Source of the DNA: Abyssibacter profundi | GTDB taxonomy: Bacteria > Pseudomonadota > Gammaproteobacteria > Nevskiales > OUC007 | DNA: 64,000 nt | Assembly (NCBI RefSeq): GCF_003151135.1 | Contig: NZ_QEQK01000017.1 | Coordinates: forward strand, 1-64,000 | Reading direction: 5' to 3' | Shown: piece after piece, positions 12,264-36,053 of the stretch | Layout of the letters: each line of letters begins with the position of its first letter | Position numbering within the stretch: position 1 is the first letter of the stretch | Program-made: the position numbers and the translations under genes | The notes under the pieces: generated by a model | Databases searched by the model: none | The model's input: only the letters and a program-made list of their open reading frames with translations | Told to the model about the DNA's origin: nothing

Positions 12264-12293
12264 AAAGTGTCATCGTGCTTCTACCCCGTTCTC

Positions 12294-12517
12294 GCGGATG
12301 GGAGACCTTCGCGAGTCAGGTGGGATTGAGCAGGACGCCGACATCATCCTCTTCATCTACCAGGAAGAAATCTAAGAAAGGCAACGGACTGGGAGGGGCG
12401 TGCCGAGACCATTACCGCCAAACAGCGAAATGGACCGATTGGAACTATGAACACGAGTGCCATGGGAGATACACGCGGTTCGACAACTTGATCGGCGAGG
12501 CCGATGACGCCTTTTGA
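12294..12517 (+). pseudogene. Broken 3' fragment of a dnaB-like helicase gene
   Basis: About the last 75 codons of a replicative helicase survive in three frames. First MGDLRESGGIEQDADIILF then IYQEEI and a stop; next GRAETITAKQRNGPIGT in a second frame; then HGRYTRFDNLIGEADDAF and a stop in a third. These match the same order of segments at the C terminus of the intact DnaB at 34351-35733 (MADLRESGGIEQDADIILF, GRAEIIIAKQRNGPIGT, HGRYTRFDNLAED). The DNA differs at many positions, so it is not a recent copy of the resident gene, and its orientation is opposite. Confidence 0.88.
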
Positions 12518-13692: not shown

Positions 13693-14514
13693 TCATGTGC
13701 TAAAACTCGCTGCAATACATGTGACGTTGTCGTCACTGCCCAGTTCGCATGCCCGGGCAACCAAGCGCTGCACGTAACTAGACAAGGCCTCGTCCGGCCG
13801 CCGCACAAAGCTTCTGTGCTCGACGACATCGAGCCCGTCTGAGCACAGCACAATCGTTTGCTCGGTGGAAAACTTGAATTCCACCACATCACAACGCATC
13901 GGCGTATGCATCGAGTCTGCTACGAGAAAGCGGTCGAGTCCTTGATAGCGAGAACTCGAGGAATGCCGGGAGGCCTCCGGCGCTAAGCCGTCTTCGATCA
14001 TGGAATTAATGATCGTATGGTCAGTCGTCATCAGACGAGCCTCACGGCTCGAGACGATCCAGGCCTTTGAATCTCCGATGTGAAATATGGTCCCGCTGCC
14101 TTCATCGAGCTCGACGCCGACCAGCGTCGCTGTCATCCCGAATCTGGGATCGTCTCTTGACGACCTTTCGTCGTCATCCTCCTCCAACTCGTCATCCCAA
14201 GCCGGAATTAGCATCTCACCGAGTTCAATCTGTAGGTCGCGGACGCGGCGAGCAGGGAGCTTCGCTGAAGATTGTCGATAGGAACGCTCGAGCAACTCCA
14301 GCACGGTGCGGCTGGCCACGTCTGCACAGGGCGAACTGTGCACCCCATCGCTCACGGCAATAACGTTTGGCGACGCTAGCCTCAGCGTCGCCTCAAGAAA
14401 GACCTCGCCTTGATGGACTGTACCGTTCAGCAGCGCCGCGTCCTCGTTGGCTGTGTTGCCGGCTTCGCGATTTGCTGTTGTCAGCAAGGCTGCCTGCAGC
14501 CTATTCAGCGCCAT
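13693..14514 (-). CDS. PP2C-family protein phosphatase
   Basis: A 273-residue PPM/PP2C phosphatase without membrane segments. Metal-binding motifs are present: NED at residues 23-25, VSDGVHSSPCADVAS from about 54 with D56-G57, FHIGDSKAWI in the middle, LCSDGLD, and the C-terminal GSDDNVTCIA. An acidic insertion (DDELEEDDDERSSRDD) sits near residues 115-130. It removes phosphate from Ser/Thr. No protein kinase gene is seen in the window, so its substrate is unknown. It is the last gene of a three-gene operon; only 1 bp separates it from the upstream nuclease-like gene. Confidence 0.85.
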   Translation of the reverse strand: MALNRLQAALLTTANREAGNTANEDAALLNGTVHQGEVFLEATLRLASPNVIAVSDGVHSSPCADVASRTVLELLERSYRQSSAKLPARRVRDLQIELGEMLIPAWDDELEEDDDERSSRDDPRFGMTATLVGVELDEGSGTIFHIGDSKAWIVSSREARLMTTDHTIINSMIEDGLAPEASRHSSSSRYQGLDRFLVADSMHTPMRCDVVEFKFSTEQTIVLCSDGLDVVEHRSFVRRPDEALSSYVQRLVARACELGSDDNVTCIAASFST

Positions 14515-16026: not shown

Positions 16027-17034
16027 TCAGGAGTCGGCGGAGTAGTAGCTTACAGTTTCCAAGAGTTCTCCCGCGATTTCCTCTCGTAGGGACTGGGGCT
16101 CCAGCACTTCAACGGCGCTACCCAACCCGCGAATCCACCTGCGTAGCTCCCACGAATCAGCGACGGATGCCTCGACGATCACTTCGTCCTCACTGACTTC
16201 TTCTATCTCCTGATCTTGTGACAGCGGCCGCTCGAACAGGTGTTCGGCCACATAAGGGTCGATTGAGAGACGTACTTTCAGTTCGTTGGTTGATTCAAGG
16301 TACGCGAAGGATTCCTGGATGTATGCCTTGAAGTCGAAGCCTTCGGGCTCAACGATCGAATCAGTAAGTGCTTGAACTGACATGATTCGATGAAGAACCA
16401 ACTGCCGCGGATCCGAGTAGTCATTAACCGTCGCGATGAGATACTCCACCCCATCACGAAAAACGAGGCCCAGCGGATGCAGCCTCATCTGAGAAGCCTT
16501 TTTCCGACCGCGCGCCTTGTACGTTACGCTGACCTGCATGCCATCGAAAACCGCTTGGTGGACGATGCCGCGGACGCTTGGGGCAATGCTCGGGGGACGG
16601 AGCGGCATGCCCGGATGCATGATCGCGACTCGGTCATTCCATCGCCTCGTTCGGCGCATCGACTCTGTCTCCAGAACGCCCTTAGCACGATCTAGAAACG
16701 GCTGTATCTCCTCGAGACGCCCCTGCGGGGCCAGCTTTTGTAACAGCGAATCAGCTATAGACCACGCGAGAGCCTGGGTCGGCGTCATGCCAGGAATCGT
16801 CAAGGCCTTAGCATCTGAGGCCCAGCTCCAGTGCTTTGTTCTGCCCCGCTCCTCCTCATAAATGCCGAACTTTGTAGAGAGCATCAACAGATCTCTTTGA
16901 ATTGATCGCACAGTTGTATCGAAGTCCGACGACAGACGCTCGTAGATCTCTCGCACTGTGATCGAGCGCGGATAGGCAGGAATCGTCTGCAGCAACACCC
17001 ACTGCCGGTAGAGAGTGTCCGCGTTACCAGCCAT
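16027..17034 (-). CDS. WYL-domain transcriptional regulator
   Basis: A 335-residue regulator. The N-terminal winged helix-turn-helix (about residues 10-60) includes SITVREIYERLSSDFDT and SIQRDLLMLSTKFGIY. The WYL domain (about 150-225) contains VTYKARGRKKASQMRLHPLG and FRDGVEYLIATV, and a WCX-like C-terminal region ends ELRRWIRGLGSAVEVLEPQS. ATG 17034 is chosen since AAGGA lies 7 bp upstream; the longer frame starts at 17049. WYL repressors such as BrxR and CapW control defence operons and respond to a nucleic-acid-type ligand. Its own promoter carries operator O3, and the same palindrome occurs before the neighbouring units, so it is the likely master regulator of the block. Confidence 0.88.
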   Translation of the reverse strand: MAGNADTLYRQWVLLQTIPAYPRSITVREIYERLSSDFDTTVRSIQRDLLMLSTKFGIYEEERGRTKHWSWASDAKALTIPGMTPTQALAWSIADSLLQKLAPQGRLEEIQPFLDRAKGVLETESMRRTRRWNDRVAIMHPGMPLRPPSIAPSVRGIVHQAVFDGMQVSVTYKARGRKKASQMRLHPLGLVFRDGVEYLIATVNDYSDPRQLVLHRIMSVQALTDSIVEPEGFDFKAYIQESFAYLESTNELKVRLSIDPYVAEHLFERPLSQDQEIEEVSEDEVIVEASVADSWELRRWIRGLGSAVEVLEPQSLREEIAGELLETVSYYSADS

Positions 17035-17094
17035 TTTCCGATCCTTCATTCGTTATGCCGTACCGTCAGAGTATCAGCGATCCTTTCAGGTAAA

Positions 17095-17113
17095 TGCGAC
17101 ACCATACGTCGCA
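17095..17113. promoter_or_regulatory. Operator copy O3 between WYL regulator and DUF6946-like gene
   Basis: TGCGACA-CCATA-CGTCGCA lies in the 100-bp divergent region, 61 bp from the regulator start and 21 bp from the start at 17135. One bound site could control both directions. Confidence 0.72.
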
Positions 17114-17134
17114 CCAACCGGCACACTCGGCCAA

Positions 17135-17848
17135 ATGGCAAATCAAGAGAAGAAGAAAGCAGGGTTCGAGCAACCAACGATATTTGTCCCAAGTGTCGGT
17201 ACCGCATCATGGCGTGAGCGACTCGCGGACCCGGTGAAGCACTGGTCGATTGGACGGTCAGCCAGAGCCATGGCGACGTCATGGCAAAACGCGAGCGGCT
17301 TTCCATCCGAGGTCACAGAAACTTTGCAATCCGACGCGCGCTTCGCAGACATTTCACCGCTGCTGATCTTTCCCGAATGGCAGGTGCCACTGCCGGGTGG
17401 CCAGCGCCCATCCCAGAACGATGCTTGGTGCCTTGCCAGCTGTCACTCGGGTCTCGTCTCCATTGCGGTCGAGGGCAATGTCGATGAAACCTTCGGCCCG
17501 ACAGTCGGCGAGTGGCTGAAGAATGCGAGCGCTGGAAAGCAGGAGCGCCTCGCATCCCTTCAGAAGGAACTGGGGATGCCGAACGCACCGACGCCACAAA
17601 CACGCTATCAACTGCTGCATCGCACAGCGTCAGCGGTGAGCGAGGCGAAGCGATTCCACGCGATGGCGGCGATCATGGTTGTTCATTCGTTCAGCCAAGA
17701 GCATGCGTGGTTCGATGACTATCGCCACTTTGCCAAGCAATTCGGGGCAGCCTCATCGATCGGCGAATTAGTACAGCTGGGGGTAGTGAGCGGCATACCC
17801 GTGCTCACCGCCTGGTGCACTGGCCATGCGAAGTACCTACATATGTAA
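17135..17848 (+). CDS. DUF6946-like protein
   Basis: A 237-residue protein resembling, from memory, the DUF6946 family: PTIFVPSVGTASWRERLADP then KHWSIGRSARAMATSWQ near the N terminus, PEWQVPLPGGQRPSQND and VEGNVDETFGPTVGEW in the middle, and TRYQLLHRTASAVSEAKRF later. The family function is unknown. VEGNVDE sits where relatives as I recall them have VEGKVDE; if that Lys is part of a nuclease-like site, this copy may be altered. ATG 17135 is selected because the conserved part begins about 12 residues later; the open frame extends back to 17015, over the regulator start. It is divergent from the WYL gene with operator O3 between them. Confidence 0.6.
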   Translation: MANQEKKKAGFEQPTIFVPSVGTASWRERLADPVKHWSIGRSARAMATSWQNASGFPSEVTETLQSDARFADISPLLIFPEWQVPLPGGQRPSQNDAWCLASCHSGLVSIAVEGNVDETFGPTVGEWLKNASAGKQERLASLQKELGMPNAPTPQTRYQLLHRTASAVSEAKRFHAMAAIMVVHSFSQEHAWFDDYRHFAKQFGAASSIGELVQLGVVSGIPVLTAWCTGHAKYLHM

Positions 17849-18074: not shown

Positions 18075-18100
18075 TCAATTGAGCTTTATAGTCGCTTGAA

Positions 18101-18119
18101 CGCGACTCCTTTTGTCGCA
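18101..18119. promoter_or_regulatory. Operator copy O4b before the AAA+ operon
   Basis: CGCGACT-CCTTT-TGTCGCA, same layout, 45 bp downstream of O4a. It overlaps an everted pair AGTCGC-TTGAAC-GCGACT at 18090-18107. It lies just downstream of the possible -10 at 18087-18092, a position suited to repression. Confidence 0.68.
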
Positions 18120-18161
18120 TTTGGCGACCAAACTACGCCTCCATTGATCGGAGTGTGTGTG

Positions 18162-20297
18162 ATGCCAAAATCAAAGACTCGCAAACGGGGGCGGAGAGCA
18201 GATGAGGCGCTCTCAGGATACTTTTCCGCCGTGCTCATACGTTACGCGTTCGGCAAGCCCGGCATCCATCGTACGCGCCCCGACCGGATCACTCGGCGCT
18301 TCGCCGGGAAGCGTTACCGGAAACTTGACACACTGGCGGACGCCCTTGGGTTCGAGGAGTGGGACGACGACCTTCATTCATTGGATGAAGTCATGAGTGA
18401 TCTGCGTCATCTGATCGAGAATTTTGATCTAAGGAAGAACAGAGAGTCGTCACTTGCAGTCGCCAAGGTTGATCACGCTAGACAAGCGATGGGACTGTCG
18501 ACTACGGAGGCGGAGTTGTTGCTCCTTGCACTTCTTTCCGCGACATGCCCGCAACTTCAAACGGCCATGTCAAACCTAGAAGCGGGCTCCGAGTTGGCTG
18601 CAAATAGGATGATTTCTCATGCCTTGGATATCAAGCCGGATAGCGTGCACGCAGCCCTCTCAAGCACTGCTCTTCTAAAGTCAGGAGGATTTCTTGAAGA
18701 ATGCCATTATGCAAGCAGTCAGCCTCGCACCCTGCAAGATCACCTTGCACTTGAAGATGACACACAACACTGGGCACGGCAGCCTCAAATCAATTCTGAC
18801 GCACTTATACATAAGGTCCTGACAAAGGCAGAACGTACGAGCCTGAATGCTTCAGATTTCAGTTACTTGGCTGATGAATTTGATCTGATGAAGGATCTGC
18901 TGCGTGGCGCCGACAGGAATGACTCAAGGGGAATTCACATACTAATCCACGGCGTCCCGGGAAGTGGCAAATCGGAACTGAGTCGTCTGTTGATCCAGAC
19001 CATTGAGGGTACGGGTTACGATATTGTTTCGGCCGAGACCGGGGGGCGACGCGACTACCTCAGCGGTGGCGAGCGCCTTGGGCGATACAGAGTCGCTCAG
19101 CAGATCCTGCGGAATAGCAAGAAGTCGTTCGTTCTATTTGATGAATGCGAAGACGCGCTGACGGCGAATGACGGGTTCGCTGCCATGTTCCGGAACGTAC
19201 GGTCTGCCATCGGGAAAGGCTGGATGACAAAACTGTTGGAATCCTCGCCCCGCCCGACCATATGGATTGCGAACGATGTAGGATGGATTGACCCAGCGTT
19301 GCTTCGGCGCTTCACATACACGCTCCACATGAAGCGGCCACCAAGACATAAGCGGCTATCGCTCGCAAAGGCAAGGGTCGGTAGCCACATAAAGGACCCA
19401 AGAATCTTGGAGTCGATTGCAGACTCATCGAGCCTGACGGCGGCGGACCTCGAACGCGCCGCGCGTGCTATGAAGCTCACTGCCACAGGCAATGCAGACG
19501 AGGACGTCAAGCGATACTTGAAAATCCTTGCGTCACGTCACGAGTCAGAGTTCAAGCCCCCAAGCGTTAACCGACTTGCAACACTTCCCTACAAATTTGA
19601 CTGGATTAACTCGTCAGTCTGCGCTGACTCCATTGCAGCGGGATTCAGGCGATGCAATCAAGGCCGCGCGGGTCTTTATGGACCACCAGGGACCGGTAAG
19701 ACGGCATTCGTAAAAGCACTAGCGCGCCAACTTGAAATCCCATTGATTCAGAAGAATGCCTCGGATCTTCTGGGGATGTATTTGGGACAGACAGAGCAGG
19801 CCATTCGAAGCGCGTTCGAGGAAGCTTCCGATGAAAATGGACTCCTCTTTTTTGACGAGGCTGACAGCCTGCTGCGCTCCAGGGGCATGGCACGCCATTC
19901 GTGGGAAGTGTCACAGGTGAATGAGTTACTCGCTCAGATCGATAACTTCCAAGGGTGCTTGGTCATCGCGAGCAACCATCATGAGAATTTTGACCCAGCC
20001 GTTGTTCGTCGAATAGACCTCAAGATCGACTTCGGCCCTCTTAAAGGCAGAGCTATTCAAGAAGTCCTAGAAGCCGCATGCACTGCACTTGGGCTCCCCG
20101 ATTCAGTCTCGGCTCAAACGATTCAACAGTCCGAACTCGAACCGAGGGACATACGGCTTGGAGATGTCGCCACAGCCCTACGGGCGACGCAGATTGCTGG
20201 GTGCCAACCAACGCTGGATGACTTATTGGCTGCAGTTGTCAGAGAACAAAAAGCGCGTGGCGCGACGGGGGCAAAGAGAATCGGTTTCATTCACTAG
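18162..20297 (+). CDS. Tandem AAA+ ATPase
   Basis: A 711-residue protein with two AAA+ modules. The first has Walker A GVPGSGKSE at about 265-273 and Walker B SFVLFDECEDAL near 323-334. The second has Walker A GPPGTGKTA near 506-514, Walker B GLLFFDEADSLL near 560-571 and the arginine-bearing AVVRRIDLKIDF further on. Residues 1-250 are unassigned and start with a basic tail (KSKTRKRGRR). ATG 18162 with GGAG 8 bp upstream is preferred over the longer frame. It opens the six-gene plus-strand run and follows two operator copies. It could be a remodelling motor that loads or licenses the nucleases encoded downstream; this is inferred. Confidence 0.82.
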   Translation: MPKSKTRKRGRRADEALSGYFSAVLIRYAFGKPGIHRTRPDRITRRFAGKRYRKLDTLADALGFEEWDDDLHSLDEVMSDLRHLIENFDLRKNRESSLAVAKVDHARQAMGLSTTEAELLLLALLSATCPQLQTAMSNLEAGSELAANRMISHALDIKPDSVHAALSSTALLKSGGFLEECHYASSQPRTLQDHLALEDDTQHWARQPQINSDALIHKVLTKAERTSLNASDFSYLADEFDLMKDLLRGADRNDSRGIHILIHGVPGSGKSELSRLLIQTIEGTGYDIVSAETGGRRDYLSGGERLGRYRVAQQILRNSKKSFVLFDECEDALTANDGFAAMFRNVRSAIGKGWMTKLLESSPRPTIWIANDVGWIDPALLRRFTYTLHMKRPPRHKRLSLAKARVGSHIKDPRILESIADSSSLTAADLERAARAMKLTATGNADEDVKRYLKILASRHESEFKPPSVNRLATLPYKFDWINSSVCADSIAAGFRRCNQGRAGLYGPPGTGKTAFVKALARQLEIPLIQKNASDLLGMYLGQTEQAIRSAFEEASDENGLLFFDEADSLLRSRGMARHSWEVSQVNELLAQIDNFQGCLVIASNHHENFDPAVVRRIDLKIDFGPLKGRAIQEVLEAACTALGLPDSVSAQTIQQSELEPRDIRLGDVATALRATQIAGCQPTLDDLLAAVVREQKARGATGAKRIGFIH

Positions 20298-20451
20298 CGC
20301 CGGTAAGCAATTCGCTTTAGCTTCATAAGTCCTTTCTAACGGTGCTTGGTAGCTTGAAGCTAACAGAGAGCATTTCGGCTTGGTCGAAAATTTTCTTGGC
20401 CTCGAGAGGAGCAACTCAAATGCAGAGCGTGCAAATGATGCGAGGAAGACC

Positions 20452-23151
20452 GTGAATCAGACCCCCAGAGTGTTCGTTCTGGCACCTGACGCCGAGTTCG
20501 CTCGTGGGCTGCGCCGCCATCTGGCAGAAGCAACTGGAGCGGTCCTTGTTCGTGTCGGGACATGGCTGGACTTGATCGAGCAGTGCCGCTCAGCGTACCT
20601 GATCGGCCCGGACCGATCAGTTGACGCGAATCTGAAAGTCGCCCAATCGGTTCCCGATGCGTTCTGGAAGGGATCACTCGCAGTCGATCCATCTGGTGTA
20701 ATGCATCACCTGCTCGCGGGCTGGCGCACAGTCCGTTGTGGCTCGTCGCCATTGACAGACTGGGCATCCCCGACGGCGGACAATTCCCGGATCGCAGAAC
20801 GCCTCCATGACTTGCAGCGGCTACAGGATTCGGCCGACTTTGCGATGCCCGATGATCTGAGAGTCATCCTTGAGATCACGCGCAAACGCCCATCACCACT
20901 CAAAACAATCAGCGTCATCATTAGCCAGCACGTGGGGTACCTTGATGAGTGGCAGAAGGCACTCTTGCAGCACTTGCGCAGGGACAGCAGGGCGAGCGCC
21001 GGGCAGCTGGAAGAACTGGTTGCAGCGTATGACGGACAGGTTGCCGCTTCGGCGGCCAGGAGCGGTTCGACGCTGCGCGCCGTCCAAGACCACTTGTTCA
21101 CGGAAAATGTGACTGAGTACCCAGGCGAGTCCAGCTTCTCCATCGCCGGCGTTCGTGACGCGTGGGAATCAGTCGATGTCACGCTGACCGCAATTCAACA
21201 TCGACTCAAAGCGGATCCGGCGCTGCGTCCAAATGACTTCGGCATCCTGCTCGTCGGGGGCAGCAACACCGAGAATCAATTACATCGTGTAGCAGCGCGT
21301 TACAGCTTGCCGATCGCAAACGCGGAGCGCAGCGTGACGATCCCCGACTACGGCGCTGAGGCGATCAAGCTCGCACTCATGGGCTGGTCTGACTTGATTC
21401 CGATCACGGCTGCCAAGTCACTTCTCACGAACCCGTTGATGCCGTGGAGCGACGCTGTCGGACGTGAGTTGGCGGCATCGCTGGATGACCGTCGCTGGGG
21501 ACTGAGGTTTTCGCGAGAGCTACCGCGGTCGGTCCGCAGTTTCGCAGAGTTCCTGTTGACGGGACTGGAGGTTCAGACACTTCCGGACGCTTTACACCGG
21601 CTCATTGAGACGCTCGACGTGACGCAAGATGAGCACTGCGCGGCTCGCACCCGAGAAGTGGCTGCAAATGTTCTCAATGCGTTCACCAGTGGCATCCGAG
21701 ACTGGGATGACTTGATCACCCAAGTGTCCGTCGGCGCCCGCCATGAGCGACTAGCCGACCCGGTCTATCAGGATGGAATCACCATCTTGCGCGAGGGCCA
21801 TCTGCCTTGGCGGCCGGTGCGCCATTTGTTCGTCCTTGATTTCGTCGACGGCCACTTTCCGACCGTTACAGGACTGCCACAGATCTTCTCGATCTCGGAG
21901 TGGACTGAGATCGTCAAGGGTGGCCTGCGAATCGAGCTGCCGCGCGACAGCGCGCAGCGAGCCCGTCAGGTATTCAAATCGCAGCTCAAGGCCGCGTCTG
22001 ACTCCGTGACGATCCTGATTCCAAGACGAGACACCTTGGGCAAGCGCGTAGAGGCATCGTCCTCGCTCTACGACATCGCCGCACTCTTCGGAGATGCGAA
22101 CGATGCGGAGTCTTTGATCCACGAGCTCGAAACGGAAACGGGCCGGAAGCATATGCCGCAGATTCCCGCTGCCGTGCCCCCTGTGGGACGAGCCCCTCGC
22201 ATGGTCGAGCCGAAGGATCTCCGGCTCCAGCAGAATCTTCTGCGCTTGAACTGTGGCGAAGGCGATCCACAACGACCGCTCTCCCCAAGCGCGATGGACA
22301 AAATGCTGGTGAGTCCTGTCGGATGGCTTCTGGCTCAGCTGGGAGCCGAACCCGGATTGTGGGAGCCGGAAGACTTTTCACCCGGGCTGACAGGATCAGC
22401 AGCACACGCAGTCTTCGAGACGCTGTTCCCCGTTGACCGCCGACCAACAGTCGCAGTGATTCGCGAGCGGACGCGCCCGTTGTTCGTGGCAGCGCTGAAA
22501 CGCCTGTCCCCATACTTGCTGGCACCGCAGTTCAGAATCGAACGCGAGTACCAAATTGGGCAAATCCAGCGTGCTGCCGAGCGCTGGTTGCAGATCCTGG
22601 AAACACTCGATGCGTCTGTGATCGAACCGGAGATCTGGCTGCAGGGCACATGGCAGAAACTCCCAATTCACGGCCAAGCCGACGCGGTGATCGACATTCC
22701 CGATGCGGGGCTCGTCATCGTCGACTTCAAGAACAGCTCTCACAAAAAGTACTTTGCAAGGATGGAGTCCGGCATGGACCTCCAAGCATCGATGTATCGC
22801 ACGATGATGGAGACAGGGGCACCGAAGCCGCGCCGCGGCACAGCCGTTGTATTGCCTGAAAACAGACCGCTCTGCGGCATCCTGTACTTCACACTCCGAG
22901 ACGGCACCGTCAGCGCCGATTTCCAACCTGCCGTCAGCATGCGCGACTGGCGCTCGACGAGCGTTGATGTCGCCGAACACGCCTCAAAAGCACTGAAAGC
23001 GCGCGTGCGCGACGCGACCCGCGGGTGCGTCAGAATCCCGCGGAAATCCGAGCTCGACGCCTGGGCAGACAACGGCGTTCCAATGTTCGCGATCGATGCG
23101 TCGCCGCTGACCCAGCGGCTTCTAATCGATGATTCGGGGGACAAGGCATGA
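20452..23151 (+). CDS. AddB-like PD-(D/E)XK nuclease
   Basis: An 899-residue protein laid out like AddB: a degenerate helicase-like N-terminal two thirds and a C-terminal RecB-family nuclease. Around residues 740-770 are ADAVIDIPDAGLVIVDFKNS and DLQASMYRTMM, giving the D...D-x-K and Q-x-x-x-Y residues. LSPSAMDKMLVSPVGW occupies the position where AddB/Cas4-type proteins have a Cys-Pro, so the iron-sulphur cluster seems absent, and no Walker A is visible near the N terminus (VFVLAPDAEFARGL). GTG 20452 after AGGAAG is the likely start; the open frame reaches back to 20380. It overlaps the AddA-like gene by 4 bp, as expected for a two-subunit helicase-nuclease. Confidence 0.8.
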   Translation: MNQTPRVFVLAPDAEFARGLRRHLAEATGAVLVRVGTWLDLIEQCRSAYLIGPDRSVDANLKVAQSVPDAFWKGSLAVDPSGVMHHLLAGWRTVRCGSSPLTDWASPTADNSRIAERLHDLQRLQDSADFAMPDDLRVILEITRKRPSPLKTISVIISQHVGYLDEWQKALLQHLRRDSRASAGQLEELVAAYDGQVAASAARSGSTLRAVQDHLFTENVTEYPGESSFSIAGVRDAWESVDVTLTAIQHRLKADPALRPNDFGILLVGGSNTENQLHRVAARYSLPIANAERSVTIPDYGAEAIKLALMGWSDLIPITAAKSLLTNPLMPWSDAVGRELAASLDDRRWGLRFSRELPRSVRSFAEFLLTGLEVQTLPDALHRLIETLDVTQDEHCAARTREVAANVLNAFTSGIRDWDDLITQVSVGARHERLADPVYQDGITILREGHLPWRPVRHLFVLDFVDGHFPTVTGLPQIFSISEWTEIVKGGLRIELPRDSAQRARQVFKSQLKAASDSVTILIPRRDTLGKRVEASSSLYDIAALFGDANDAESLIHELETETGRKHMPQIPAAVPPVGRAPRMVEPKDLRLQQNLLRLNCGEGDPQRPLSPSAMDKMLVSPVGWLLAQLGAEPGLWEPEDFSPGLTGSAAHAVFETLFPVDRRPTVAVIRERTRPLFVAALKRLSPYLLAPQFRIEREYQIGQIQRAAERWLQILETLDASVIEPEIWLQGTWQKLPIHGQADAVIDIPDAGLVIVDFKNSSHKKYFARMESGMDLQASMYRTMMETGAPKPRRGTAVVLPENRPLCGILYFTLRDGTVSADFQPAVSMRDWRSTSVDVAEHASKALKARVRDATRGCVRIPRKSELDAWADNGVPMFAIDASPLTQRLLIDDSGDKA

Positions 23152-26100
23152 GCAATTCGCTTGATGGATTGACGCTCCTGCCCGCGAGCGCTGGGTCCGG
23201 CAAGACATATACGTTGACCGAGCGGTTGACCAATGCGCTGGCCGAGGGCGATGTCCAAGCCGAGCGGATCTTGGCCGTGACGTTCACGGAAGCGGCGGCA
23301 TCCGAGTTGCGTGGTCGCATCCGGGCCCGCGTTTTGGGGAGTGGCGACCTCGTGGCGGCCCAAGGCCTGGATGAGGCTTATATCTCCACGATCCACGGTC
23401 TCGGCCTGCGAATCCTCAAGGAGTTCGCATTCGATCTTCAGAGTTCGATTGCGCCCAGACTGCTGATGGAGAACGAGCAGACGCTGTTGATCCAACTTGC
23501 GCTGTCGCGTTCTGACGCGATTCGAGAGATCGCACCGGATCTTAAGCGATTCGGATATCAGTGGACGGCGTGGTCAGGCAGCGAGGCCAGTCAGTTTCGG
23601 AACGTCGTCGCAACGCTCATTCGGCTTCTGCGCGATCTCGGAGAACCCAAACCGATCAGCGCTTTGGCCGACCAGTGCGAAAGTGAGATTCGGAGCGCCT
23701 ACGGGCAGGTGCTGAAGAAATCTACCCAAGCGCTCGCGACGTCACTTCGCAGCGCCTGTCAGGCCCTCCTCAGCGAGCATCCACACTCCCTCGTTGATAC
23801 CTGCGCCAATTCGAAGACCGCAGAGCGTGAGTTTCGGGCGGATTACGATAATCTGAGAAAGGCGGCAGACACCGACGCTGCCGAGTTCGACTGGTCACTC
23901 TGGTCCAATCTGCGAAATCTCAGGCTGCTCAAACGCGGATCACCGCCACTCCCGGACGGCTATGAATATCTGGCCACAGCGGTCATGAGTGTTGCGGCGA
24001 AGATCGAGCGACACCCGGGACCACTGAACGATGCCGTCGCGCACATGCGTGCGCTGTTCCGCTGCGCCGAGGATGCCTTGGGCGCCTACGCAGAAATGAA
24101 GCAAGCGCGCGCAGCCGTTGATTTCACCGATATGGTGACACTGGCCGCGCAATGCATGGAACAAGACCAGCTAGCCAAGCTATTGGCCAAGCGTCTGGAT
24201 CGCATTGTTGTCGACGAATTTCAAGATACGAACCCGACTCAGTTCAGTCTGATCTGGCATTTGGTGCGACAGGCGGTTCCCGCCATTTTGGTCGGTGACC
24301 CAAAGCAGTCGATCATGGGCTTTCAGGGCGCTGACGTTCGATTGTTCTCGACTCTGTTGGAGAGTTACCCGGATGCAGTGGAACCATTGCCCGGTAACTG
24401 GCGCTCCGCCCCCGGCGTCATGGACTTTATCAACGCCGCCTCGAAGGGGCTTTTTTCGAACTACGCACGGCTCAAAGCCAATGCCAAAGCGTCTGCACTC
24501 ACGCCCCTTCATGTCATCAACTTTGAGGGCAAGCGGTGGAGCAAACGGGCACGCGCGCCGCACATCGCAGATGTCATTCGGCGAAAACTGGCGAACCCTG
24601 AATGCGTGGTGAACGACAGGCACACCGGCAAGCAACGCCGCGCCCGAGGCAGTGATGTCGCGATCTTGTGCCCGACGAACAAGGATCTCGAAATCTATGC
24701 CTCCGCACTGGCGGACCTTGGCCTGCCCGCAAAATTCAAACGCGACGGATGGTTCGAGTCCGAAGAGGTGCAGATTGCATGGCACGCCCTTCAACTGGCT
24801 GCGGATCCAGAGGATCGCCATGCACAGCTGTTTTTGGCAACGAGCGATATCGGAACCCTGGACCTGCCGAAATCAGTCACCTCACTGCTGGACGACGGAG
24901 CCATCGCTGACCCGGTGGTTGATCAACTGCGGCAACTTGCGACGGGCGCAAGTGTCGATGTCTGCGACGCCGTGCCGCACATTCTGGAATCGATCGGCCT
25001 GTTTGAACACATCAGTCAGTGGGACTCGGCCCGGCAGGCCCGAGCCAACCTGCTCGCGGTCATTGGTTACGCTGAGGAATTCTCGGCCTTGCCTGCCGAC
25101 ACGCTCGCAGCGCAGGGCTTTCACGGCAAGAACCTGTCGATCTTTGTGAGCTGGCTTCTCACAGTCAAAGACCTCGATAACACCTGCCCGGATGCCGGAG
25201 TGATTGAGGAGGACGCCGTGAACATCGTCACCTGGCATTCCTCCAAGGGACGCGAGTGGCCAATTGTTGTGGTGTGCGGCTGGGACAAGAAGATCGCTCC
25301 CCGTCTTCCAGATCAATCCATCCGCTACCCCTCATTTGACGACCTCGAGCAACTCAGTCAAAAGGCCGCAATTCGATTTGTACCGAACTACGCCGTTAAA
25401 GAGAAACGCGATGCTGCGATGACTGCGTTGCAGCCAGAAGCCGAGGACGCGGCGCGGCGGGAGATCTACGTTGCCATCTCACGAGCCCGCGAACAGGTTG
25501 TACTGGAATGGCCTGAGGCCGCCCTCGCGTCTTCAGCGACAACCCGAGCCGCGCTCTTCGCAACGGAGACATCCCTCACGCTAGACGACGAACACGTTGT
25601 ACTCGGTAAGGCAAAAATCCCTGCGAGGTACACACACCTGACAGATGCTGATGCGGCGCCTGATTCAGCTGTTGGCGGCGACCAAACGAGCCAAGCGGTA
25701 TATGGACGCGCCCTGCTTCAATCAGACAACCCGGAGAGTCGAAGGGCTTTCGATTCAATCAGTCCCTCGAAGCTGCACGAGGCGGAAGGGGCCGCCGAAG
25801 ATATAGTTGTACCCATTGAGGTGCTCAAGTACGCCGATCCAATTGTATTCCCCGACACCGACGATCCCGCCGCTCTCGGCATACTGGCCCATCGCTTCTT
25901 CGAAGCCGGTAGCGAGCATCTCGATCAAGTTCGCCGCTGCGTTGAACATGAGACAGCGGCACTGTGGGGCGATGCGGCTGAGCCAATCCTGCAGTCGCTG
26001 GAACAACAGGTACTGGCTTTCGAGCGCGCGCTCGAGCGTGAGTTGGAGGTGGTCAGCATCGACGCGGAAGTCGATGTCATCGCGCTGAGTGGGGAAGCGA

Positions 26101-26327
26101 CCATCGTCTCAGGGGCGATCGACCTGGTTGCGCGAGCCCGAGACAAGACTTGGATCATCGACCACAAGACAGATCGAGATACTGACCCACACCGCGTAGC
26201 TGTGCGGCATTTGGCGCAGATAAAGGCATATCGCGAGATGCTGGAGCGACTGGAGGACTCACCAATCTCAGGCGCGATCAATCTGGTTCGATCAGGACAA
26301 CTGATCTTGCTTGGGCAAATTCGTTAG
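23148..26327 (+). CDS. AddA-like UvrD-family helicase with C-terminal nuclease
   Basis: A 1059-residue superfamily 1 helicase. Walker A ASAGSGKTYTL is at residues 13-23, motif Ia VTFTEAAASELR near 45-56, motif II IVVDEFQDTNPTQF around 355-368, motif III VGDPKQSIMGFQG near 383-395, motif V TWHSSKGREWPIVVV near 695-709 and motif VI YVAISRAREQVVL near 775-787. A PD-(D/E)XK nuclease follows (VSGAIDLVARARDK, WIIDHKTDRD, LAQIKAYREML, about 985-1035). The protein resembles AddA/RecB and should unwind and degrade DNA ends together with the AddB-like partner that overlaps it by 4 bp. It is distinct from housekeeping recombinases by its neighbours. Confidence 0.88.
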   Translation: MSNSLDGLTLLPASAGSGKTYTLTERLTNALAEGDVQAERILAVTFTEAAASELRGRIRARVLGSGDLVAAQGLDEAYISTIHGLGLRILKEFAFDLQSSIAPRLLMENEQTLLIQLALSRSDAIREIAPDLKRFGYQWTAWSGSEASQFRNVVATLIRLLRDLGEPKPISALADQCESEIRSAYGQVLKKSTQALATSLRSACQALLSEHPHSLVDTCANSKTAEREFRADYDNLRKAADTDAAEFDWSLWSNLRNLRLLKRGSPPLPDGYEYLATAVMSVAAKIERHPGPLNDAVAHMRALFRCAEDALGAYAEMKQARAAVDFTDMVTLAAQCMEQDQLAKLLAKRLDRIVVDEFQDTNPTQFSLIWHLVRQAVPAILVGDPKQSIMGFQGADVRLFSTLLESYPDAVEPLPGNWRSAPGVMDFINAASKGLFSNYARLKANAKASALTPLHVINFEGKRWSKRARAPHIADVIRRKLANPECVVNDRHTGKQRRARGSDVAILCPTNKDLEIYASALADLGLPAKFKRDGWFESEEVQIAWHALQLAADPEDRHAQLFLATSDIGTLDLPKSVTSLLDDGAIADPVVDQLRQLATGASVDVCDAVPHILESIGLFEHISQWDSARQARANLLAVIGYAEEFSALPADTLAAQGFHGKNLSIFVSWLLTVKDLDNTCPDAGVIEEDAVNIVTWHSSKGREWPIVVVCGWDKKIAPRLPDQSIRYPSFDDLEQLSQKAAIRFVPNYAVKEKRDAAMTALQPEAEDAARREIYVAISRAREQVVLEWPEAALASSATTRAALFATETSLTLDDEHVVLGKAKIPARYTHLTDADAAPDSAVGGDQTSQAVYGRALLQSDNPESRRAFDSISPSKLHEAEGAAEDIVVPIEVLKYADPIVFPDTDDPAALGILAHRFFEAGSEHLDQVRRCVEHETAALWGDAAEPILQSLEQQVLAFERALERELEVVSIDAEVDVIALSGEATIVSGAIDLVARARDKTWIIDHKTDRDTDPHRVAVRHLAQIKAYREMLERLEDSPISGAINLVRSGQLILLGQIR

Positions 26328-26471: not shown

Positions 26472-27695
26472 ATGCGATTCGATGAGTTGGTTGCGATGAA
26501 GCCGTCGTTTACTTGGCTCGACCTAACTTCCCAGGACCGCGACAAAATGCGTCGGGTGATGGACTTGCTCAAGGAGGAAGGAACTGTCGATGAGATGGGT
26601 CTTGGGACGCTGCGTGACACGATCTCAGACGCGCTGTTTCCAGGTACTTCAGTGCTGCACACGCGTCTGCGGTACGTCTTGTTTATTCCTTGGATGTACC
26701 AGGAATTTGAGCGCAAACGATTGGCAGGAAATGCCATCGAAGAAAAAGGTCGCGATTACGAGATCAGTCTCATTTCGGCGCTGGGTAACTCCGACGACTC
26801 TGAGGGCACAATTGGGAGTCGCGCAAAGGCGACGTTGAGTCGTTTGCCTAGTTCGGCCTACTGGGCCGCACTGGTGAGGTGGGGCCTGTTTCGTCACGAA
26901 CAAAGTCAAGGCTGGTACCACCGGCATTTCTCCGAGCTCGTTAGAAGGAGCAGAGAGTCTGGGCGTGCCGACGATCCAGGCGTCGTTTGGGGGCGCGAAC
27001 CCAACTGGCATCCGCGGCTCCCGCCAGCACCCGCCGGGTTTCCAGGGGAGGCTTCGTTCGCATTGACCCGAGAAGAAGCGGCGTTCATTCAAGGCCGGAT
27101 TGAGGAGCGCTGCCATGGCAGCTTGTTCGCTTGGTTGTCCAAGGAAGACGCCGTTCAATTTGCCGATCATCTCTGGGATGAGCCTGCCGTCGGCGTAGCC
27201 AACATCAAAATCCAGCAGGTGGTTGAGTGGGCTCGGCGCTTTTCGCTGCACGTCGAAGGCTTGCCGCTCTTCTATAACTTGTTGTTGGCCGAGCGAAAAC
27301 GGGACGAACATCAGGGCGATACCGATCTCATCGAGCGCTATCGGGCGGAAGCCCAGCGCTGGATTCAGGAAGAACTGCAGGAGTCGCCATTCGACACCAA
27401 GGGCTTTGAGAACTTCATGATTCTTCGGGGGCGTTCGATTTCGACTCCACAATCCAGATTCTTAAACGCATGGGCTGATCGCGTGCGGCTATGCGGGGAA
27501 TCCCTGGTCGATGATCGCAATGTCCGTGATCTGATCGAGCGACGAGAGCGGCAGCTCAAGGGCCATCGCGCACGGCTGTTCAATTCCGTGCGGTTGCAGC
27601 AATGGGACGGTGGTGTCGGTGTTGGTCGCATGGAGTTTCGCTGGTCCAGCGTGCGTCAGCTGCTCAAAGATCTTCACCAAGGCTTGGCGAACTGA
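26472..27695 (+). CDS. DUF6361 family protein
   Basis: A 407-residue protein recognised by its N terminus (FTWLDLTSQDRDKMRRVMDL, then GTLRDTISDALFPGTSVLHT and RLRYVLFIPWMYQ), which I know as DUF6361. No catalytic motif is obvious; the middle contains SSAYWAALVRWGLFRH. Function is unknown. A 144-bp gap without a palindrome copy separates it from the AddA-like gene, so it may have a promoter of its own. Its TGA overlaps the ATG of the phospholipase-D-like gene (TGATG), which in turn overlaps the helicase gene, making a tight three-gene unit. Confidence 0.72.
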   Translation: MRFDELVAMKPSFTWLDLTSQDRDKMRRVMDLLKEEGTVDEMGLGTLRDTISDALFPGTSVLHTRLRYVLFIPWMYQEFERKRLAGNAIEEKGRDYEISLISALGNSDDSEGTIGSRAKATLSRLPSSAYWAALVRWGLFRHEQSQGWYHRHFSELVRRSRESGRADDPGVVWGREPNWHPRLPPAPAGFPGEASFALTREEAAFIQGRIEERCHGSLFAWLSKEDAVQFADHLWDEPAVGVANIKIQQVVEWARRFSLHVEGLPLFYNLLLAERKRDEHQGDTDLIERYRAEAQRWIQEELQESPFDTKGFENFMILRGRSISTPQSRFLNAWADRVRLCGESLVDDRNVRDLIERRERQLKGHRARLFNSVRLQQWDGGVGVGRMEFRWSSVRQLLKDLHQGLAN

Positions 27696-29479
27696 TGCTG
27701 CCTCCTGATAGCCGTGTTGTCGCAGTGGAACTGCTGCGAGCCCCCGAGGGATACACCTTGGACTCTGCGGTGCTCACGAGTTACAGCCTGGACCTTGAAA
27801 CGTTGCTTGCTCTTCCGCTGGCGGTACTTTCCCAGGCTGATGCGGGCATCGAGCAGCTTCTTCGTGATCCGCTGCTCCTGTTGGAATCACTGCGCGAGTC
27901 GGGCCAGAAGATTCATGTCTTCGTAGATGAATCGGCTATCGCCGTGCCCCGAACCGAACGGCCGTTATTCTCGATGCTGGAAGCGAGCGTCCATTCCGTC
28001 AAAGCCCCGAACGGTGGAGCATTTCACCCGAAAGTCTGGGCGGCGAGGTTCGTTGCCCCGGGCCGCAAGCCGATGTTGCGTGTTGCGGTCTTGTCGCGAA
28101 ACCTGACCTACGACCGGTCCTGGGATCTCGGCATAGTTAGTTGTGCCACCGAGAAATCCGGAGCCGAAGCGTCGAGCAGCCGAGATCTGGCACGTTTGTT
28201 CGCTACGTTGCCCTCGCTCTGCACGGAATCCCTTCCGACAATCGCCTCAGATCTGGTCAGCTCGATGTCGGAATCGCTCGGCAGAACCCTGTTTCCCGCG
28301 CCAGAGGGGTTTACCGGCAACATCGAGTACACGGTCTTTGGTCTTGATTCAGGCGTCCAGTCACCTTGGCAACCATTACAAAGCGCAAGCCGCGTGCTTG
28401 CCATGGCGCCGTTCGTAAACCAAACCGCGCTGTCCGTACTGGCTCAGCTGGGTTCAAAGGACAAGCGTTCCTTGATCAGTCGTCAGGACTCACTCGACGC
28501 GTTGCCTGAATCTGGGCTTGAGCCATGGGGTGATGTTCGAGTTATGAGCGAGTCGATCGAGGACGAAAGCGAGGATGGTGTTCCCACTGAACTCAGCGGG
28601 CTGCACGCGAAGTTGCTCGGCCTTGAGCATTCTTGGGACGTCACCTGGTTTGCAGGGTCCAGCAATCTCACCGCTGCGGCATTCACAGGTGCGAATGTTG
28701 AGATGATGGCGTCAGTTACAGGTCGGCGGTCCAAGTCCGGCATCGAGCGCTTCGAAGAGGCCGGCATTGGTCGGATGCTGGAACCTTATCGTCGTATCGA
28801 ACGCCCCGTTGAAGACGCGGCACTGACGAAGGCCATCGAAGAACTCGAAAGCGCCAAGCGCACTGTCATCGACTCTGCACTGCGAATCGCGACAGCCGAA
28901 GCAGACACTGACTGGCAGTGGACGCTCGAGGGCAAGGTTGAATTGCCTGACAGCGTCGCCGTTCACCACTGGCCAATTAGCTTATCCGCAAGCGCCTCTC
29001 GTCCACTGGTGCTGCCAGTCTCCTGGCGCATACCCACCTCTCATTTAACCGCTTTCGTCGCGTTTCACTGCAAGTCCTCCCATCCCAAAGTAGAAGACAT
29101 TCACTTCGTGCTCAAGCTGCCCACTCAAGGCTTTCCGGAGAATCGCGTTAATCAAGTATTACGCACCTTGATCGACTCGCCGGAGCGGTTCCTGCAGTTC
29201 CTTCGTGCTTTACTCGGCGGCCTAGAAGGCCTGGTTGATTGGGCTGACGGCAGGAATGAACCCGGAACAGGTGAATCTTGGAACCTCCCTGCTCTTGGTG
29301 ACGAGACCTTATTGGAAGACTTGCTACGTATGGCTTCACGGGATCCACAACGCCTGGAACCGATACGACGTCTGATTTACGACTTGGAGCAATCCGATGG
29401 GGACAAGTTGGTTATTCCGCGGGAGTTCCTGCACATCTGGAAAGTCGTCGAACGAAGCTTGGCTGAGCGCAAAGCATGA
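27695..29479 (+). CDS. Phospholipase-D-like protein
   Basis: A 594-residue protein with two HKD-like half-sites: AFHPKVWAARF followed by VLSRNLTYDRSWD at about 107-140, and LHAKLLGLEH followed by WFAGSSNLTAAAF at about 303-330. Each half-site keeps the H-x-K and the S-x-N-L-T strand of PLD nucleases. The C-terminal 200 residues are unassigned. In defence loci such proteins act as nucleases (for instance DrmC in DISARM). Start ATG 27695 shares bases with the stop of the DUF6361 gene; the open frame to 27602 is only upstream overlap. It overlaps the helicase gene by 4 bp. Confidence 0.8.
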   Translation: MLPPDSRVVAVELLRAPEGYTLDSAVLTSYSLDLETLLALPLAVLSQADAGIEQLLRDPLLLLESLRESGQKIHVFVDESAIAVPRTERPLFSMLEASVHSVKAPNGGAFHPKVWAARFVAPGRKPMLRVAVLSRNLTYDRSWDLGIVSCATEKSGAEASSSRDLARLFATLPSLCTESLPTIASDLVSSMSESLGRTLFPAPEGFTGNIEYTVFGLDSGVQSPWQPLQSASRVLAMAPFVNQTALSVLAQLGSKDKRSLISRQDSLDALPESGLEPWGDVRVMSESIEDESEDGVPTELSGLHAKLLGLEHSWDVTWFAGSSNLTAAAFTGANVEMMASVTGRRSKSGIERFEEAGIGRMLEPYRRIERPVEDAALTKAIEELESAKRTVIDSALRIATAEADTDWQWTLEGKVELPDSVAVHHWPISLSASASRPLVLPVSWRIPTSHLTAFVAFHCKSSHPKVEDIHFVLKLPTQGFPENRVNQVLRTLIDSPERFLQFLRALLGGLEGLVDWADGRNEPGTGESWNLPALGDETLLEDLLRMASRDPQRLEPIRRLIYDLEQSDGDKLVIPREFLHIWKVVERSLAERKA

Positions 29480-32400
29480 AGCGCCCTGATCTGGAATCCA
29501 TCCTCAGGCCACTCAAGTCGTTCCAGCGACGCACGGTGGATCACGCGTTCCATCAGATGTTCTATGCGCCCAACAGCACGTCCCGTTTCCTGGTGGCCGA
29601 CGAAGTTGGTCTCGGCAAGACCTTGGTGGCGAGAGGGATCATCGCTCGCACCATTGATGCCTTGTGGGACGACGTTGATCGCATTGATGTGATCTATATC
29701 TGTAGCAACTCGAGCATTGCGCGCTCCAATTTGCCGAAATTACAGATCGGCAGTGGAGATGAGCGATCCGTTGCCCTCGCCACGCGACTGACAATGCTGG
29801 CGACACAGCTGGCGCCGCGCGCTGGTCGCGCCGGATTGGCCCATAGCAAGCTGAATTTCGTCAGCTTCACCCCGGGCACCTCGTTCGAGATGGGTCATTC
29901 CACCGGTCAAGCACCCGAACGAGTCGTACTCTTCCGGCTACTGGCGCCGTTGTTTCCGGAACAGCGCACAGCACTGATGAATCTACTTCAAGGCTGGGTC
30001 ACGAATACCGAGCGCTGGCGGACACGGCTTAAGCACGATCACGTCCCGCTAGACCCTGGTATTGAGAAAAGCTTTCATGCGGAGGTGCTTTCTAACGTCG
30101 AGCTGCGAGAACGAATCACTGAAGTTCTGGATGAATGGTTTGCACGCCAACGCAAGCATTTACCGGATGAAGCAGTGCATGCACGCAATGCCATTGTTGG
30201 GGAACTGCGTAAGCTGCTCGCACGAATTTGCGTGCAGGGGCTGGAACCCGATCTTGTGATCCTCGACGAGTTCCAACGCTTCAAGACGCTGTTTGATGCA
30301 CCACCGGATTCGCATAATCCGGCTGTCCAGCTAGCACGGGCGCTATTCGATGCTCAAACGCCGGAGGGCCATCCAGTTCGAAGCCTGCTGCTTTCAGCTA
30401 CACCTTACAAGCTCTACACCGCAGATGCCGAAATCGATCAGGAGGATCATTACGAGGATTTCCTGTCGACGACACGTTTCCTGTTCCGCCACGATGAATC
30501 CAGAGTCGCAACATTACGCCACCAATTGGCTGACTTTGGCAGAGCCCTGAAACATGCGGCGCATGGCGATGATTCCGGCGTTTACAAAGCAAAAGCAGCG
30601 GTTGAAGTGACCCTGCGCAGTGTCATGGCCAGGACCGAACGCGTTGCCGCCAGCGATGACCGTGATGCTATGGTCGAGGAGCCCTCGCTGGCGGTCACTA
30701 TGCAGCCAGAAGATGTCGAACAGTACCTGGCAGCGGATGCGCTGTTTCGTGCTGTCGGCGACCGAGACCCGATGCCGTTTTGGAAATCGGCACCGTATCT
30801 CGCGCACTTTATGCACGGTTATCGGTTCAATGACCGCCTCACCGACGCGCTCGATGTGTCGCCTGGCAAGGTCGATGAGGTACTTCAAAACCATCAACCG
30901 GCGTTTATTGCCTCAGATCAGCTGGCGACTTGGCAGGAACTGCCGCTTGCGAACGCTAAACTGCGTCAGCTAGCACATGAATTGTTGGACGGCGGGCTCT
31001 GGAAGCTGCTTTGGATACCGCCCACTGTGCCCTATTGGTCACTCGAAGGCCCGTTTGAAAATCAGCAAGCCACCAAGACGCTGATCTTCTCTGCATGGAA
31101 CGTCGTGCCAGATGTCCTCAGTGCGGTTCTGAGTTATGAAGCGGAGCGGCGGATGGTTGACGATGTCTGGGGGCACTACGACCAGTACAGCCGACAAGCG
31201 ACTTTGCTGCAGCTGTCGAAAGAAACTGATGGGACGCTCAATCGTCACCGCCTTCTGTTGCTGCTGTTGCCTTGTCTGCCCTTGGCGGACGGAGCCCATC
31301 CGCTTCATGCGCCGCCATCGCAAGATCGACGTGAGTGGGTTCGGTCTCGGGTGGGCACTCTGCTGAGTGACCTTTCACTCCCGAATCCCATCGATGGCGA
31401 AGTCGATGATCGCTGGGAGTGGGCCTGGCCGGTCCTTCTCGACCCGGAGCTCAAAAACTTTATTCGTAGTTGGGTCGGAGATGAGCAGCTACCCAAACCA
31501 AGTGAAGACCTGTTTGCTGGCTACGCAAAGGAACTGATCGACATCACCCCCCAGAGTATGGGGCGGAGGCCAGAGAGCCTGGAGGAACTAATCGTCGACG
31601 CGGCATTGGGTGCGCCAGGTGTTTTGGCTGCGCGTACATTGGCCTCCACCAAACTGTCAGAAAACGATCGGCGTTGGTATTCGGTGTACATCGCCGACGC
31701 GTTCTGGAAATTGTTCAACAGGCCTCCTGTTACCAAGTTGCTCCCGCAGCTGGCCCAGCAATTCAGCCCAGAGGCTTCTCGTCAGGACCTTTTCTATTGG
31801 CGCTTGGTCATGCGATATTGCAGAGACGGCAACCTTCAAGCGGTCCTGGATGAAAGCTGGCACTTGATCTGGGAGCAACACGGCTGGTCAGCGGACAAGG
31901 ATTACGGTGATGCCATTGATGACGCAGTCGTCCAACTGGCTGACTCAATTCAGCCGCCGCGATCCAGTGTTCAGGCGCGTTTCTTCAATCGCAAGGGCGG
32001 CAGTACGGCATTTGAAGAGATGCGCCTGCGCACGGCTCTTGCACTTCGATTTGGTGATATCCGCACTGAGGAGCGCTTGATTAGCCAGGATGGTGTTCGC
32101 AACGCGTTCAACAGTCCATTTCGACCATTCGTGCTGGCGAGCACCTCGGTTGGGCAGGAGGGGCTCGACTTTCATCCATGGTGTCGCCGCATCGTGCATT
32201 GGGATCTGCCCGGGAATCCGGTCGATCTGGAGCAACGCGAAGGGCGCGTCCACCGCTACAAGGGACTTGCAGTGCGCCAAAACGTCGCGCTCGCTCACGG
32301 ACAACATGCCCTCGACCAATGGGAGATTGGCAAGGATCTGTGGGAGTTGATCTTCTCACTGGCGTTCGACAAAGCACGGAGCGATGGTAAAAGTGATCTT

Positions 32401-32640
32401 GAGCCTCATTGGATGGCGCCAGGCCCCGTCAAGGTCCAACGGCACGTACCGCTGCTACCCTTCAGCGCTGAAGTCGAAGCCTTCCGTCGGCTAAAAAGGC
32501 AGCTTGCCGCCTATCGAGTCGTCTTCGGCCAGCCTCGCCAGGAGGAACTGGTTACGTTGCTGGATCACGCGCAGCTCGACTCAGAAAAGCTAATGTCTTG
32601 GGCCATCGATTTGCAGCCTGATGCACACGAACTAGGTTGA
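29476..32640 (+). CDS. SNF2/DEAD-type helicase
   Basis: A 1054-residue superfamily 2 helicase. Motif I ADEVGLGKTLVARG is at 41-54, motif II LVILDEFQRF near 259-268, motif III LLLSATPYKLYT near 303-314. The C-terminal helicase domain has ASTSVGQEGLDFHPW and a motif VI of form LEQREGRVHRYKG around 888-930. A long unassigned insertion lies between the two RecA-like lobes. The DE-F-Q motif II and the Q-x-x-GRVHR-x-K block resemble helicases of DISARM and Dnd/Ssp-like loci. It is the last gene of the plus-strand run, overlapped by the PLD-like gene. Confidence 0.85.
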   Translation: MKRPDLESILRPLKSFQRRTVDHAFHQMFYAPNSTSRFLVADEVGLGKTLVARGIIARTIDALWDDVDRIDVIYICSNSSIARSNLPKLQIGSGDERSVALATRLTMLATQLAPRAGRAGLAHSKLNFVSFTPGTSFEMGHSTGQAPERVVLFRLLAPLFPEQRTALMNLLQGWVTNTERWRTRLKHDHVPLDPGIEKSFHAEVLSNVELRERITEVLDEWFARQRKHLPDEAVHARNAIVGELRKLLARICVQGLEPDLVILDEFQRFKTLFDAPPDSHNPAVQLARALFDAQTPEGHPVRSLLLSATPYKLYTADAEIDQEDHYEDFLSTTRFLFRHDESRVATLRHQLADFGRALKHAAHGDDSGVYKAKAAVEVTLRSVMARTERVAASDDRDAMVEEPSLAVTMQPEDVEQYLAADALFRAVGDRDPMPFWKSAPYLAHFMHGYRFNDRLTDALDVSPGKVDEVLQNHQPAFIASDQLATWQELPLANAKLRQLAHELLDGGLWKLLWIPPTVPYWSLEGPFENQQATKTLIFSAWNVVPDVLSAVLSYEAERRMVDDVWGHYDQYSRQATLLQLSKETDGTLNRHRLLLLLLPCLPLADGAHPLHAPPSQDRREWVRSRVGTLLSDLSLPNPIDGEVDDRWEWAWPVLLDPELKNFIRSWVGDEQLPKPSEDLFAGYAKELIDITPQSMGRRPESLEELIVDAALGAPGVLAARTLASTKLSENDRRWYSVYIADAFWKLFNRPPVTKLLPQLAQQFSPEASRQDLFYWRLVMRYCRDGNLQAVLDESWHLIWEQHGWSADKDYGDAIDDAVVQLADSIQPPRSSVQARFFNRKGGSTAFEEMRLRTALALRFGDIRTEERLISQDGVRNAFNSPFRPFVLASTSVGQEGLDFHPWCRRIVHWDLPGNPVDLEQREGRVHRYKGLAVRQNVALAHGQHALDQWEIGKDLWELIFSLAFDKARSDGKSDLEPHWMAPGPVKVQRHVPLLPFSAEVEAFRRLKRQLAAYRVVFGQPRQEELVTLLDHAQLDSEKLMSWAIDLQPDAHELG

Positions 32641-35976: not shown

Positions 35977-36053
35977 TGGCGGGCCCGGAGCGATTCGAAC
36001 GCCCGACCCCCTGGTTCGTAGCCAGGTACTCTATCCAACTGAGCTACGGGCCC
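35977..36053 (-). tRNA. tRNA-Arg (anticodon ACG)
   Basis: The 77-base gene folds as a standard cloverleaf. The acceptor GGGCCCG pairs with CGGGCCC and the gene ends G-CCA. The D arm contains AGCTCAGTTGGATAGAGT. The anticodon stem CCTGG/CCAGG encloses CTACGAA, giving anticodon ACG. The T arm has GTTCGAATC. CCA is encoded. No second copy of its 3' end was noticed in the window. Confidence 0.97.

Follow-up and report, generated by a model that had tools for sequence, protein, structure and literature searches.

Gene content of the locus and its surroundings

The window, i.e. the whole stretch of DNA that was analysed, comprises 64,000 nt of Abyssibacter profundi (assembly GCF_003151135.1, contig NZ_QEQK01000017.1, positions 1–64,000 of the forward strand). 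A gene for a WYL-WCX transcriptional regulator (16027..17049, minus strand) is oriented divergently to a series of genes on the plus strand. These encode, in this order, a Pfam DUF6946 protein (17015..17848), the membership of which is uncertain, a double AAA ATPase domain protein with an IetA-like second domain (18096..20297), an AddB-like subunit (20452..23151), an AddA-like subunit (23148..26327), and the three subunits of an Azaca system. The frames of the AddB-like and AddA-like subunits overlap by 4 bp, and 144 bp separate the AddA-like gene from zacA. ZacA (26472..27695) was recognized by its PADLOC model (E 6.7e-122) and by Pfam as DUF6361. ZacB (27695..29479, PADLOC E 4.7e-149) is phospholipase-D-like (PLD) and has two HxK motifs, which are invariant in an alignment of relatives; its probable ATG is at 27695, in a frame that is open from 27602. 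ZacC (29476..32640, PADLOC E 0, 1040 bits) is an SF2 helicase-like subunit, and its frame overlaps that of ZacB by 4 bp. The Azaca system is thus complete, with all three genes adjacent and each at full model length. The AddAB-like pair is not a part of Azaca as it is modelled in PADLOC.

The pair is situated in a defence island with a lower G+C content, which also contains a complete Wadjet type I system (JetA, JetB, JetC, JetD; 585-7370, minus strand). A tRNA-Arg gene (35977-36053, minus strand) is found at the edge where the G+C content climbs from about 56% to 62%, which is likely to be the island boundary. Direct repeats at 8189-8288/33513-33612 (96% alike) and 9129-9214/34010-34095 (91%), the copies of which are about 25 kb apart, flank the operon segment and are possible insertion or recombination scars. 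In addition, an inverted 76-nt repeat is present (12293-12368 and 34505-34580, 84% complementary). An ORF at 12275-12517 contains the string HGRYTRFDNL, which resembles the end of a DnaB-like gene (34351-35733), and therefore the opposite side of the island seems to hold a 3′ fragment of dnaB in inverted orientation. A gene for a PP2C-type phosphatase (13693-14514, minus strand) is located near the operon.

Sequence features and predicted structures of the two subunits

The AddB-like frame is open from a TTG at 20380 and ends at 23151. The alternative start, a GTG at 20452, was favoured because AGGAAG is found just 5′ of it and because in close relatives, too, the FLLxPD motif follows within a few residues of the start. 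The resulting protein has 899 aa, an inactive helicase-like fold and an intact C-terminal PD-(D/E)XK nuclease (PDDEXK_1, Pfam E 1.9e-12), in which H652, D744, D758, K760, Q778, and Y782 are invariant in an alignment of 47 sequences. The AddA-like subunit (1059 aa, including its own nuclease) is a UvrD/RecB-type SF1A helicase with a UvrD-helicase domain (Pfam) and a C-terminal PD-(D/E)XK nuclease (PDDEXK_1, Pfam E 1.2e-8). In an alignment of 36 sequences, Walker A and B as well as the nuclease residues D992, D1005, K1007, Q1024, and Y1028 are invariant. Open reading frames, Pfam domains, and invariant residues therefore confirm what an earlier sequence-only reading had described, i.e. the AddB-AddA order, the 4-bp overlap, and a PD-(D/E)XK nuclease in each subunit.

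The same reading had characterized the AddB-like subunit as a “stripped-down” AddB that lacks Walker A and has SPVGW in place of the iron-sulphur (Fe-S) Cys-Pro, and had suggested that the pair is adapted to defence rather than a housekeeping enzyme. Both observations were borne out. We looked for Walker A in the AddB-like subunit and found none. SPVGW is part of a V-S-P-x-x-W motif, with V620, S621, P622, and W625 in 47 of 47 sequences, so that Ser-Pro occupies the site of the Fe-S Cys-Pro, and in the same alignment cysteines are scarce near the C-terminus. Accordingly, the four-Cys Fe-S motif of the Gram-positive AddB nuclease is not present (S621 in 47/47). In about half of the aligned relatives, the N-terminal domain is without the first strand that it has in the window protein. 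The term “stripped-down” is justified in comparison with Gram-positive AddB only, but not in comparison with the other AddB-type protein of the host, which belongs to TIGR03623 (899 versus 889 aa).

For comparison, we inspected 20 housekeeping AddB-type proteins (8 alphaproteobacterial AddB and 12 gammaproteobacterial AddB-type proteins), and none of them has a Walker A. Alphaproteobacterial AddB has the sequence RDPYAIYA, i.e. Asp-Pro, at the site of the Fe-S Cys-Pro. Because ordinary proteobacterial AddB proteins share both absences, these do not alone indicate defence. They are marks of the family, and the two reasons that had been given for a role in defence are, taken alone, not discriminating. 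AddAB-like pairs of a sister group (L169, L171-L173) have retained the Fe-S cysteines, which suggests that the AddB-like family has probably lost the Fe-S cluster.

Structure prediction for the single chains agreed with these assignments. The model of the AddB-like subunit (pLDDT 88.0, pTM 0.80) had B. subtilis AddB as its best Foldseek match (3u4q, 4ceh; E about 1e-20), and VIA-align superimposed the two with Z values of 20.9-21.4 and rmsd values of 12.6-12.8 over 798-833 aligned residues. The next structural matches were UvrD-type helicases, AdnA, and RecC. As modelled, the fold is that of AddB. In profile comparisons, the AddB-like subunit matched the sister group with a probability of 99.9%, TIGR03623 with 99.3%, and alphaproteobacterial AddB with 97.1%. 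The model of the AddA-like subunit (pLDDT 87.7) matched UvrD, AddA, and RecB at Z 25-28.

The pair is separate from housekeeping enzymes

AddAB of B. subtilis and of Alphaproteobacteria shares with the pair the AddB-AddA order, one active SF1A motor, a nuclease domain in each subunit, and the AddB fold, and with this gene order, overlap, and domain content the pair could be taken for the ordinary housekeeping AddAB of the organism. However, the host genome encodes a second pair (locus L111, G000:C10), in which an AddB-type gene of 889 aa that scores above the cut-off of TIGR03623 (371 bits) overlaps by 4 bp with the RecB-like gene behind it, which encodes 1120 aa. This pair is similar to the window pair in AddB length, gene order, and overlap, but it is chromosomal, common among relatives (16 of 21 related genomes), and falls into another tree clade. 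The cut-offs of the NCBIfam housekeeping models were missed widely by the AddA-like subunit (recB 203 versus 696 bits, addA_Gpos 186 versus 708, addA_alphas 150 versus 861), and the AddB-like subunit had neither an NCBIfam nor a PADLOC match.

Trees of AddA proteins were calculated with quick searches and SH-aLRT support only, and with a sampling from which Firmicute AddA and AdnB/AdnAB were absent. The AddA-like family forms a single clade (SH-aLRT 100), which is sister to a second AddAB-like group (support values of 99 and 98), and both together are placed outside alphaproteobacterial AddA, the partners of TIGR03623, and RecB. Neither of the two findings that would have spoken against the sequence-only reading was obtained: the trees placed the AddA-like subunit outside the sampled housekeeping AddA/RecB clades, and the genome has a second AddAB-type pair. 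Furthermore, all 11 genomes of relatives that were checked, several of which are metagenome assemblies, have one or several additional open frames of the AddA/RecB type with lengths from about 1100 aa upwards; in one Chlorobium genome, this gene is RecB. The trees, the second host pair, and the missed NCBIfam cut-offs show that the AddAB-like pair is not the housekeeping enzyme. Together with the location in an island of defence genes, the G+C content of which is lower, they leave an identity with housekeeping AddAB hardly conceivable; the second pair and the trees refute it, unless the pair at C10 is inactive.

The members of the sister group (L113, L169, L171-L174) are AddAB-like pairs, some of which have WYL-, DUF262- or SNF2-like neighbours. 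This group may represent a second defence branch.

Other known systems resemble the pair in part. The AddA-like subunit is similar to RecB of RecBCD, but recC and recD are absent from the locus, the nuclease residues of the AddB-like subunit are intact, and the clade is a separate one; a match to recC was not found in the host genome, nor a RecD-like gene in the operon. AdnAB, which was outside the tree sampling, likewise has two subunits with a nuclease in each and is structurally similar, but it carries Walker A in both subunits, in contrast to the AddB-like subunit. Gabija (GajAB) also combines a UvrD-like helicase with a nuclease partner, and the AddA-like subunit matches GajB at 2e-38, which is explained by the shared UvrD core. 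The neighbours of the AddA-like gene are the genes for the AddB-like subunit and ZacA, whereas a GajA (ATPase plus TOPRIM) does not adjoin it, and therefore an identity with Gabija was rejected.

Distribution of relatives and their gene neighbourhoods

A single-sequence scan of genome contigs yielded no relatives, whereas an alignment-based scan recovered 80 genome loci, to which 10 plasmids were added. Viral contigs contained no AddAB-like relatives, and similar DNA was not found at the nucleotide level in phage records and E. coli genomes. The 80 loci are spread over Alphaproteobacteria, Chlorobi, Acidobacteria, Deltaproteobacteria, Nitrospinota, one member of the Methylococcaceae, and Rhodothermales. 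Across the 80 loci and the 10 plasmids, the AddA-like gene follows the AddB-like gene.

We then estimated the frequencies of neighbouring genes at the 78 informative loci, i.e. those with at least 2 kb of downstream sequence; the loci are related, and therefore the counts are not independent. A zac-type cassette is located directly downstream of the pair in 34 of the 78 loci and directly upstream in three more, so that it adjoins the pair on either side in 37 and is not directly beside it in 41. The gap between the AddA-like gene and the first cassette gene, measured on the longest ORFs, is zero or negative in 25 of the 34 downstream cases. Genes for WYL proteins, which recur beside the pair, occur near it in 42 loci, AAA genes in 27, and ADP-ribosylglycohydrolase genes in 17. 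Relatives of the double-AAA protein are likewise found repeatedly near the pair in other genomes. BREX genes (PglX-PglZ-BrxL) are located directly upstream of the pair in eight loci. An ADP-ribosylglycohydrolase with an N-terminal dual-specificity-phosphatase-like domain, exemplified by L023:12192-13760, lies between the WYL and AddB-like genes in many loci. On a Komagataeibacter plasmid, the AddB-like gene is split into two frames (L026:11753-14298), possibly representing a decayed copy.

Two types of cassettes occupy the same place beside the pair, the Azaca type of the window and an Azaca-like type (L023, L024, L030, and others), which consists of a new 400-aa first gene without a PADLOC match, a PLD protein, and an SF2 helicase. 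ZacB2 of this cassette is related to ZacB (hhalign 93%), but a relation of ZacA2 to ZacA was not detectable, and for this reason the cassette is termed only Azaca-like; its classification as a true Azaca (“Zac type 2”) was rejected.

Within the part of the literature that was covered, Azaca appears only in lists and in one helicase comparison (PMC12278908), and the searches retrieved neither an account of the Azaca mechanism nor a description of an AddAB-like defence pair. A 2026 survey of BREX does not mention AddA, AddB, RecB, or UvrD (PMC12839542).

A predicted role in defence

Azaca downstream and Wadjet upstream of the pair in the window, together with the recurring Zac, BREX, WYL, and AAA neighbours elsewhere, link the pair to defence, and this link has good support. 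We regard it as fairly likely that the pair is an uncatalogued defence-associated AddAB-type helicase-nuclease, which in A. profundi is one module of an operon with zacABC. The earlier view of a defence-adapted rather than housekeeping enzyme therefore stands, based on the trees, the second pair, and the neighbourhood.

A different explanation would be that the pair is a horizontally acquired second repair or recombination enzyme, or a backup when phages inhibit RecBCD/AddAB of the host. The catalytic parts of AddAB are all intact, and members in Terriglobia and Desulfuromonadaceae are found among ordinary metabolic genes, with no obvious defence island. Furthermore, inhibitors of RecBCD are common in phages, and there are other systems that react to these inhibitors (PMC12904381). 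However, the distribution is patchy, with strong matches in only 2 of the 398 genomes that were sampled from the phylum, the pair occurs on plasmids and beside defence genes, and the genomes examined already contain another AddA/RecB-type gene. This explanation thus appears improbable.

RecBCD and AddAB are double-edged, because they repair the chromosome and also destroy linear phage DNA, and Chi is the switch between these functions. The pair belongs to a separate AddAB-like branch, which is found together with antiviral gene clusters, and it is probably a dedicated shredder of phage DNA rather than a repair enzyme of the cell, and a degradation of phage DNA ends is plausible. The two subunits would form one heterodimer with a single 3′-5′ motor (AddA-like) and two nucleases, which would load onto double-stranded DNA ends and degrade processively. 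The ends could be those of linear injected phage DNA or breaks made by a partner, i.e. the ZacC ATPase together with the ZacB PLD nuclease, or BREX elsewhere; such partner modules would supply recognition and breaks. The Fe-S anchor is missing and the N-terminal region is not conserved, and from these sequence features it is predicted that the pair probably does not obey the Chi signal of the host, with a conserved Chi response being unlikely; the pair would then continue to degrade DNA. Expression is probably under the control of the WYL protein, and the AAA protein may have a part in regulating or remodelling the complex.

A cooperation of the pair with Azaca is likely. Tentatively, and with slightly less than even confidence, we propose that the pair and the PLD/helicase (Zac-type) cassette constitute one uncatalogued multi-subunit defence system, in which ZacABC or its variant would sense and cut, and hand the breaks to a dedicated, Chi-independent AddAB-type machine for removal of the foreign genome. 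Zac and BREX would then be interchangeable as the cutters that act upstream, and control would lie with WYL proteins. Alternatively, the pair could act as a defence system on its own, independently of ZacABC, and have only the islands and the WYL control in common with Azaca, BREX, and others. This would be compatible with the plasmids of Agrobacterium (L021), Novosphingobium humi (L027), and others, which carry the pair and a WYL regulator but no zac genes, and with the existence of Azaca without the pair: ZacC was found in 5 of the 398 genomes sampled from the phylum, and three of these five lack an AddB-like match. Yet this rarity of ZacC contrasts with the frequency of zac-type cassettes directly downstream of the pair, mostly in overlapping or touching frames, and we consider a self-contained system unlikely. 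The partnership of the pair with Azaca is modular, because 41 of the 78 loci lack an adjoining cassette and Azaca occurs without the pair.

If the proposed role is true, this defence-associated branch of AddAB would illustrate how the destructive activity of the enzyme has naturally been split off for immunity, and Azaca would be extended by a two-subunit nuclease. The VSP..W motif could serve as a marker for finding defence loci that are as yet unlabelled.
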